From Methanobacteriota archaeon (GTDB lineage: Archaea > Hydrothermarchaeota > Hydrothermarchaeia > Hydrothermarchaeales > JACRDW01): 11,643 nucleotides of DNA. The position numbers were made by a program, and so were the translations under genes. Shown one piece after another: positions 1,961 to 2,188 of the stretch; positions within the stretch are counted from its first letter, which is position 1, and every line of letters begins with the position of its first letter. The stretch lies in assembly GCA_016212785.1 (NCBI GenBank), contig JACRDW010000092.1:1-11643 (forward strand), given 5' to 3'. Below the pieces are notes generated by a model. It was not told where the DNA came from. It did no database searches and saw nothing but the letters and a program-made list of their open reading frames with translations.

Positions 1961-2000
1961 GTGCGCCGTGGCATGGACTCGAATCCCCTGAACGACAGGG
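1961..2000 (-). pseudogene. Degenerate tRNA 3'-half-like segment
   Basis: On the minus strand a 5-bp hairpin (CCCTG, loop TCGTT, CAGGG at 1986-2000) is followed by GATTCGAGTCC and then GCCACGGC-GCAC. This resembles the long variable arm, T-loop and acceptor 3' strand of a class II tRNA. The next bases copy the GCGCAC that follows the acceptor of the intact tRNA at 2024-2111. The T-stem pairs poorly, and no 5' half with a matching acceptor (GCCGTGG) is present. It is therefore best read as a decayed or partial tRNA copy, or as a chance resemblance. Confidence 0.3.
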
Positions 2001-2023
2001 AAGGTCGTTTTAATGACCCCGTG

Positions 2024-2111
2024 CGCTGCGGAGGGGGTTTGAACCCCTGATGACCTCGTGGGGGTCACACTCGGTCATAAGCCGAGCGCATTACCGCTCT
2101 GCCACCGCAGC
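2024..2111 (-). tRNA. Class II (Ser-like) tRNA with anticodon UAU
   Basis: A complete 88-nt cloverleaf reads on the minus strand. The acceptor stem is GCTGCGG/CCGCAGC (2105-2111 with 2025-2031). The D arm has a 3-bp stem GCA/TGC, with A14, G15 and the G18-G19 pair in the loop. The anticodon stem is CTCGG/CCGAG with loop CTTATGA. The 21-nt variable region carries a 5-bp stem TGACC/GGTCA, and the T arm is AGGGG-TTCAAAC-CCCCT. The discriminator is G73, and CCA is not encoded. U8-A14 and G15-C48 tertiary pairs are possible. Long variable arm plus G73 is the archaeal serine-tRNA pattern (leucine uses A73). Yet loop position 33 is T and positions 34-36 read TAT, which would decode the isoleucine codon AUA. 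Either this is a non-canonical tRNA or an anticodon-mutated tRNA-Ser copy. The fold is certain; the identity is not. Confidence 0.8.
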
Positions 2112-2140
2112 ATGCATAATTATTTATACCTGTTAAGATT

Positions 2141-2150
2141 GTATGATAAA
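2141..2150 (-). promoter_or_regulatory. Possible TATA box of the tRNA gene
   Basis: The minus strand reads TTTATCATAC, centred about 35 nt upstream of the tRNA 5' end, which would give a leader of roughly 9 nt. A second TATA-like stretch (2119-2128, TATAAATAAT) is too close to the mature 5' end to serve normally. Confidence 0.3.
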
Positions 2151-2151
2151 T

Positions 2152-2182
2152 TGACTTCGTGGGGGTTGGTGGCTCTGCCACC
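2152..2182 (-). repeat. Internally deleted partial copy of the tRNA
   Basis: Two segments match the intact tRNA in the same order and strand. Plus-strand bases 2152-2166 match 2051-2065 at 14 of 15 positions (variable arm). Bases 2172-2182 match 2096-2106 at 11 of 11 (D arm and acceptor edge). The 30 nt between them in the tRNA, including the anticodon arm, are replaced by 5 nt. This looks like a tRNA-derived remnant from duplication, or recombination at an integration site. Confidence 0.5.
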
Positions 2183-2188
2183 TTTTTT
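2168..2188 (+). terminator. Hairpin followed by six T
   Basis: GGTGGC-TCT-GCCACC is a perfect 6-bp stem followed by TTTTTT on the plus strand. Archaeal termination depends mainly on T-runs, so this could stop plus-strand transcription before the convergent Mut7-C operon. It is built from the tRNA-derived remnant, so the function may be incidental. Confidence 0.4.

Follow-up and report, generated by a model that had tools for sequence, protein, structure and literature searches.

The tRNA gene and its surroundings

The window (the whole stretch of DNA that was analysed, 11,643 nucleotides) is contig 42 of a draft genome, G000, which comprises 1.11 Mb in 161 contigs and is 93% complete. The phylum is probably Hydrothermarchaeota: the nearest named relatives of the dihydroorotase (PyrC) encoded in the window come from Hydrothermarchaeales/Hydrothermarchaeota, at 51-57%, and further PyrC relatives in the protein collection are 83-95% identical. 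HdrB reached 54% identity at best in named genomes, a set that may lack records close to the window. A single tRNA was called in it by ARAGORN, on the minus strand at 2023-2111 with the anticodon tat, and the Rfam tRNA model matched 2024-2111 of the same strand with 59.4 bits (gathering score 29; E = 2.4e-12). The features of the locus are as follows:

1964..2008, minus strand: possible remnant of another class II tRNA, similar to its variable arm, T-arm, and 3' acceptor (by eye; blastn)
2012..2018, minus strand: trailer motif GGTCATT, 5 bases past G73 (pattern search)
2024..2111, minus strand: class II tRNA gene with G73; anticodon UAU at 2077-2079 in the loop C-U-UAU-G-A (ARAGORN, Rfam, stem pairing)
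2051..2067, minus strand: variable arm, TGACC-CCCACGA-GGTCA, whose stem GACC/GGTC is common to two sister genes (pattern scan of 394 archaeal genomes)
2112..2151, no strand assigned: A/T-rich spacer from the tRNA to the mimic, possibly a divergent promoter (sequence; TATA-like scores are not unusual or mildly so)
2152..2166, minus strand: variable-arm copy, identical at 14 of 15 bases, with a start-to-start distance of 101 (upstream match scan)
2168..2182, minus strand: copy of the 5' D-arm, a perfect hairpin that is followed on the plus strand by T6 (sequence)
2183..2188, plus strand: run of six T after the hairpin, which would be terminator-like if an antisense RNA were made (sequence)

The acceptor stem of the tRNA (GCTGCGG/CCGCAGC) has seven pairs, a D-stem is present, the anticodon stem is CTCGG/CCGAG around the loop CTTATGA, and the T-arm (AGGGG-TTCAAAC-CCCCT) has five stem pairs. 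The acceptor/T-stem body is 7/5, and CCA is not encoded. A first-pass annotation of this DNA had described a class II tRNA with G73, a UAU anticodon, and a full cloverleaf, and this was confirmed by ARAGORN, by the Rfam score, and by the reading of the stems. The minus strand, a tRNA mimic upstream of the gene, and the sister genes described below are additions to that account.

The serine identity features that had been claimed (G73 and a long variable arm) were read from the sequence, as were G1-C72 and G30-C40. In Methanosarcina barkeri, the serine marks given in the accessible part of the source are G73 and G30-C40 and, for one enzyme, also G1-C72 and the base of the variable arm (PMC9976931); G73, G30-C40, and G1-C72 are carried by the window tRNA. 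The label "Ser-type" rests on these marks and on the variable arm, and the sequence itself appears divergent. Scored against isotype profiles, the tRNA reached 25.5 bits on the Ser profile (39 Ser tRNAs), 18.8 on the Leu profile, and 18.6 on the Cys profile; ordinary Ser tRNAs, each left out in turn, reached 45.8-79.0 bits on the Ser profile. The anticodon is not one of those of serine (NGA or GCU). A sequencing error that had changed a Ser anticodon was named in the first-pass annotation as grounds for withdrawing its claim; such an error is unlikely, because UAU is at least two changes away from UGA, CGA, GGA, and GCU, and because the sisters carry other non-Ser anticodons.

Two further observations were made downstream of the gene. 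The stretch at 1964-2008 matched Ser, Leu, and sister tRNAs (the last with the anticodon GAU) in blastn at 77-79% over 24-30 nt (E 0.03), which is only suggestive of a tRNA remnant. At 1378-1895, convergent with the tRNA, a 104-aa frame overlaps a gene for a DUF2283 protein (Pfam); by size and order, these two resemble a toxin-antitoxin pair.

Sister genes in one order

A sister gene with the anticodon GUG was first seen in a DNA search of 61 genomes (G000 included). Eight Ser-type class II tRNAs, including those of the window and GUG, then served to build a model that was run on the 20 genomes of the order. Matches were listed down to about 60 bits; every listed match of at least 69 bits was read (66 in all), plus some lower ones. 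Among these 66 listed matches, four were class II tRNAs with G73 and a non-Ser anticodon: UAU (the window), GUG and GAU (both in G006, of the same order and another family, 62% complete), and UAA (in G014). The search of relatives for the same gene, advised in the first-pass annotation, yielded two sisters in the same order, but with anticodons that differ from UAU; the other genomes compared all lie outside the genus and family of G000.

The UAU, GUG, and GAU genes formed one clade (ultrafast bootstrap 97, SH-aLRT 90), and the group nearest to it was ordinary tRNA-Ser (97/92), represented by 39 tRNAs; the tree is rough, since only 88 columns were available and the bootstrap had not settled. 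The three genes share a common ancestry. On the Ser and Leu profiles, respectively, the GUG tRNA scored 31.7 and 24.6 bits and the GAU tRNA 29.7 and 30.7. By these scores, all three (the window tRNA at 25.5 and 18.8) are far from any isotype group, with an affinity to Ser that appears loose and that, for GAU, is nearly tied with Leu. The UAA tRNA (G014:C89:179-271; L189/L268), which has a Leu anticodon, was nested among ordinary Ser tRNAs on a long branch, and no 9-base repeat of it was found in the 178 bases upstream.

The acceptor, D, anticodon, and T stems of the three sisters hold 20 pairs each, and all 60 pair cells were standard pairs. Seven of the 20 pairs had changed on both sides among the sisters, compared to 2.2 ± 1.2 in shuffles and none in slid controls. 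The cloverleaf has thus been kept by compensatory change, and the three sisters are not decaying copies: the loss of stem pairing by which a tRNA pseudogene is recognized was seen in none of them. A silent, decayed tRNA-Ser copy thus finds no support, and pairing was kept in the two sisters, which belong to another family.

The family is, on these searches, small and restricted to one lineage, with three loci in two draft genomes. The variable-arm pattern GACCN{4,9}GGTCANCNGGGGTTCRAA was matched only in G000 (once) and G006 (twice) among 394 archaeal genomes. A pattern for class II tRNAs with G73 and W35 was matched in eight of the 394 (nine rows), of which three rows were tRNAs (in G000, G006, and G014) and the other six were chance-like by eye; this pattern misses the GUG sister because it demands a GCNGNGG acceptor, U33, and no intron. 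In viral contigs, one pattern scan gave no match, and another gave one match where ARAGORN finds no tRNA. The trailer of the window tRNA recurs as GGTCACT, 4 bases past G73, in both sisters. Across the 23 genomes of the phylum, the pattern GGTTCRANNCC-N10-G-N{2,7}-GGTCAYT had four matches, namely the three sisters and one in G013 that is tRNA-like by eye.

Several other tRNAs drew attention during this work. G000 also holds a Leu-type class II tRNA (G000:C137:211-294; L027/L036) with A73, the acceptor strand GCGGGGG, and the Phe anticodon GAA; it groups with Leu(UAA)/Leu(UAG) and is similar to G004's Leu(UAA), from which it differs by G34 in place of U34 and at a few more positions. The same genome has a tRNA-Phe(GAA) of its own, with an intron, at C100:8652-8779, and the GAA of the Leu-type tRNA may be an error or a real change. 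The tRNA-Cys(GCA) of G000 (L023) and of G007 (L258, L243) has C73, and its D-arm is similar to the one in the window tRNA; immediately downstream of the former is a frame that looks like CysRS by eye, and G007 has a second tRNA-Cys with U73. A tRNA-Leu(UAA) in G007:C223 (L253), with encoded CCA, a bacterial look, and a very long branch, is possibly contamination of that draft genome.

A truncated tRNA mimic upstream of each sister

Upstream of each sister lies a truncated tRNA-like copy that lacks the acceptor and T-arm, stands at a near-fixed distance, and repeats the variable-arm letters of its own tRNA. The spacer between tRNA and mimic measures 39-40 bases at the three loci, and the distance from copy to original is 101 bases in the window and 97 and 98 in the sisters. 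The GAU mimic holds the whole variable arm, the GUG mimic its 5' strand and loop (the 3' strand is missing), and the window mimic nearly the whole arm, with two changes; the loop letters of the variable arm are kept identical in all three. The D-arm copies are perfect hairpins, GGTGGC-AGA-GCCACC in the window and GGGGC-CGGA-GCCCC and GGTGGCAG-AGTGG-CTGCCACC in the sisters. A hairpin like an anticodon arm is present in the GUG and GAU mimics and absent from that of the window. In the GAU mimic, its stem reads CCCGA/TCGGG, as against CCAGG/CCTGG in the tRNA, and is still fully paired.

These copies were compared to the upstream regions of other tRNAs by seeking the best 15-base match of the variable region in the 160 bases upstream (141 tRNAs had enough flank, 34 were too short, and 107 were scored). 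The sisters took exactly the three highest places, with 15, 14, and 14 matching bases out of 15 and a match start of -55 in each case; the next best had 13, 12, and 11 of 15, at other offsets. By a cruder measure, the longest exact string shared with the same 160 bases, the sisters ranked 3rd, 8th, and 9th of 111 tRNAs, and above them stood copies of the 5' end or T-arm near ordinary tRNAs. A hairpin pattern run over 23 genomes of the phylum returned 24 rows; the GAU mimic is among them, and the window's own mimic is missed by this pattern. Rfam, applied to four loci, returned nothing but tRNA above the gathering score. A box C/D guide RNA was also considered by eye and was dropped, there being no clear D box.

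Repeats were seen near other tRNAs of G000 as well. Val(CAC), Val(GAC), and Leu(CAG) (among L012, L007, L017, and L009) have copies of their own 5' ends, 16-23 bases long, which lie some 130 bases upstream and are linked to a repeat that forms a hairpin, GAGCC-TTTTTG..CAAAAA-CCCTCGGG. The same repeat, with no tRNA piece, precedes Val(TAC), and other repeats flank several tRNAs.

The mimic could be what is left after tRNAs were duplicated repeatedly or after a site-specific recombination event in the variable arm, with the GACC/GGTC stem and its loop of 5-7 bases as the recombinase core and the copy as a leftover attachment site. The upstream copies do keep the parts that lie 5' of and in the variable arm, with no T-arm or acceptor and with identical loop letters at all three loci; several tRNAs of G000 adjoin hairpin repeats and truncated tRNA copies, and the stretch at 1964-2008 may weakly hint at a 3' tRNA fragment downstream. 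However, decay or random leftovers would not be expected to yield a best match starting at -55 at three loci from two families, D-arm hairpins that pair perfectly, or, as in the GAU mimic, an anticodon-arm stem that has become paired anew; Pfam identified no integrase among six window proteins. We regard this origin as unlikely, although it survives better than the decoding explanations considered below.

Strand and possible promoter of the mimic

Read on its reverse strand, the mimic complements the variable arm. Over the stretch that can be aligned, the mimic differs from its tRNA at two positions in the window, one in GUG, and none in GAU; all of these differences are G to A, and G-U pairs therefore remain. 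The D-arm copies pair in part, with pairing interrupted in GAU by a single change from C to G. Predicted folding energies for the reverse and forward strands were -12.6/-10.4, -24.8/-22.2, and -32.9/-32.4 kcal/mol, so that the reverse strand is only slightly better; for the window mimic, only the reverse strand is predicted to form a hairpin across the variable-arm copy. Beyond the mimic, the reverse strand reaches T6 in the window, ACTTTTTC in GUG, and GCTTCTTCTTA in GAU, the last not a T-run.

TATA-like matches were scored against a consensus. The forward match was 5/8, and 93 of 148 other tRNAs had one as good; the reverse match was 6/8, equalled in 31 of 148. As promoter evidence, these matches are weak. 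With modest confidence, we favor the mimic as a putative divergent antisense RNA.

Anticodon loops and the meaning of AUA

The t6A modification, used for ANN codons, is placed on A37 where it follows U36. Among the 126 tRNAs that ARAGORN called without an intron, U36 was found in 26 and was followed by A37 in 24; the remaining two, with G37, are the UAU and GAU sisters. U33 was present in 125 of the 126, the exception being the GUG sister with C33. The occurrence of U36-G37 or C33 in these loops argues that the family does not consist of ordinary elongators.

The use of AUA was studied in 18 chosen genes of G000, where AUA is the commonest Ile codon (AUA 202, AUU 107, and AUC 75; 202 of 384). 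At 121 AUA positions, the commonest homolog residue was I in 54, V in 22, and L in 22 (98 of 121). Ser, which the first-pass annotation had expected at AUA codons if the tRNA were expressed and charged with serine, occupied only 14 of 1311 homolog cells, a count drawn from the 13 of the 18 genes with homologs among the compared loci and in which 161 of the 204 matches came from HdrB and HdrC. In PyrC, compared to 120 listed of 7870 homologs, Ser occupied 12 of 1524 cells at 13 AUA positions; at the control positions in the same listed homologs, it occupied 206 of 358 cells at three TCA codons and 352 of 1286 at eleven AGC codons. Insertion of Ser at AUA as a general event thus finds no support, and reassignment of AUA to Ser is rejected on these homologs, in which AUA aligns with Ile, Val, or Leu, not with Ser.

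An unusual class II tRNA-Ile(UAU) that stands in for an agmatidine-modified tRNA-Ile(CAU) and decodes AUA as Ile would accord with several observations besides the frequency of AUA. TiaS (searched as PF08489 across 20 genomes of the order) was found in 16, including G006, and was not found in G000 (93% complete). ARAGORN called no CAU among the 37 tRNA hits of G000, and two archaea are known to have tRNA-Ile(UAU) instead, according to the part of PMC8450103 that was available. These absences are weak evidence, since Ser(UGA) and Leu(GAG), among further expected tRNAs, were also not found in G000 and intron-bearing genes are hard to call; because these tRNAs are missing and several of those found lie near contig ends, the lack of TiaS and of a CAU tRNA may be an effect of the assembly. 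G007 (94% complete) is also without a detected TiaS, and no UAU was called among its 38 tRNA hits. An Ile tRNA is expected to carry A73 and A37, and the window tRNA has G73 and G37; the anticodons of its sisters are GUG and GAU, and TiaS is present in G006. We consider this explanation improbable.

Equally hard to sustain is a mistranslating tRNA, charged with serine and used at AUA at a low rate, whether it makes the proteome ambiguous or is a toxin that the upstream RNA keeps in check. The marks G73, G30-C40, and G1-C72, as known in part from M. barkeri (PMC9976931), are in place, and expression of allo-tRNAs in E. coli leads to the insertion of Ser, according to the portion of the review at hand (PMC7609411). 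However, with AUA the commonest Ile codon, misreading should carry a cost even if it is rare; U36-G37 or C33 is found in the loops; and nematode class II tRNAs with UAU and CCC anticodons gave no detectable misincorporation in the sections of PMC4300185 consulted. As for the enzyme, no second SerRS exceeded the cut-off in G000 beyond one serS, and no SerRS exceeded it in G006 (62% complete).

Proposed role of the locus

The evidence points to an RNA locus that is being maintained, and not to an altered genetic code. Our preferred reading, held with middling confidence, is that of a lineage-restricted family of class II tRNAs with serine identity marks and the anticodons UAU, GUG, and GAU, which probably do not decode and which have an upstream partner element. 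The suggestion of a regulatory tRNA, made in the first-pass annotation, is supported to this extent by what can be read from the DNA.

The tRNA would be made and could be charged with serine by way of its variable arm and G73, but would not be used as an ordinary elongator. The upstream element would be its partner, most simply a short RNA transcribed in the opposite direction from the shared 39-40 base spacer. The 5' part of such an RNA would be complementary to the variable arm, and its end would consist of the D-arm hairpin and a pyrimidine-rich stretch. By covering the variable arm, the partner could hinder recognition by SerRS and so set the level of charged tRNA. The outcome would be a controlled, serine-charged RNA whose use is other than decoding or, on the boldest view, a tRNA that does harm and is held in check.

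More tentatively, and with considerable doubt, we propose that the locus may be a two-RNA module, in which a serine-charged, non-decoding class II tRNA is paired with a divergent antisense RNA directed against its variable arm and partly its D-arm. It would act as a self-contained regulator or as an RNA-only toxin-antitoxin pair in one archaeal phylum. No such two-RNA module was found in the open-access literature searched. The mimic offers a testable handle on the role of class II tRNAs with wrong anticodons, in that it supplies a partner, a strand, and a target arm. Should the tRNA be charged with serine and yet be withheld from the ribosome, its function would lie elsewhere than in general translation.

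Comparison with known systems

Class II tRNAs with wrong anticodons are already known in bacteria and nematodes; an archaeal one was not found in the open-licence literature, a search outside of which most subscription papers lie. The bacterial allo-tRNAs (Mukai et al. 2017, as described in the available portion of the review PMC7609411) are class II, with SerRS identity elements and diverse non-Ser anticodons. UAU is among the commonest anticodons in their 8/4 group, and one UAU group was not usable for translation in E. coli, according to the same portion. The archaeal parallel to allo-tRNAs drawn in the first-pass annotation holds for the class II form, the Ser marks, and the non-Ser anticodon UAU. 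It does not extend to membership: allo-tRNAs, as described there, are bacterial and have 8/4 or 9/3 bodies, whereas the window tRNA is archaeal and has a near-fixed upstream mimic, and it is excluded from the group because its body is 7/5.

Leucine identity goes with A73 and a Leu-type body. The window tRNA has G73, falls outside the Leu tRNAs in the tree, and scores lower on the Leu profile than on the Ser profile. It differs in these respects from the nematode nev-tRNAs, which are class II with class I anticodons, include nev-tRNA-Ile(UAU), and are matured (PMC4300185 and PMC4033280, each in part). They are eukaryotic and were charged with Leu in vitro, with no detectable misincorporation (PMC4300185), and the sections seen of these sources mention no upstream mimic.

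The tRNA-Ile(UAU) of Nanoarchaeum and Korarchaeum shares with the window tRNA its anticodon and a genome in which no tRNA-Ile(CAU) was found (PMC8450103, in the part available). The window tRNA differs in its long variable arm, G73, G37, and GUG and GAU sisters. Archaeal tRNA-Sec, with a 9/4 body and the anticodon UCA in the portion of PMC7609411 at hand, is ruled out by the 7/5 body and UAU. Ordinary archaeal tRNA-Ser, the nearest group in the tree, has G73, G1-C72, and G30-C40 in common with the window tRNA; the latter is set apart by a longer variable arm, another anticodon, the base at position 37 (or, within the family, 33), a low profile score, and its upstream mimic.
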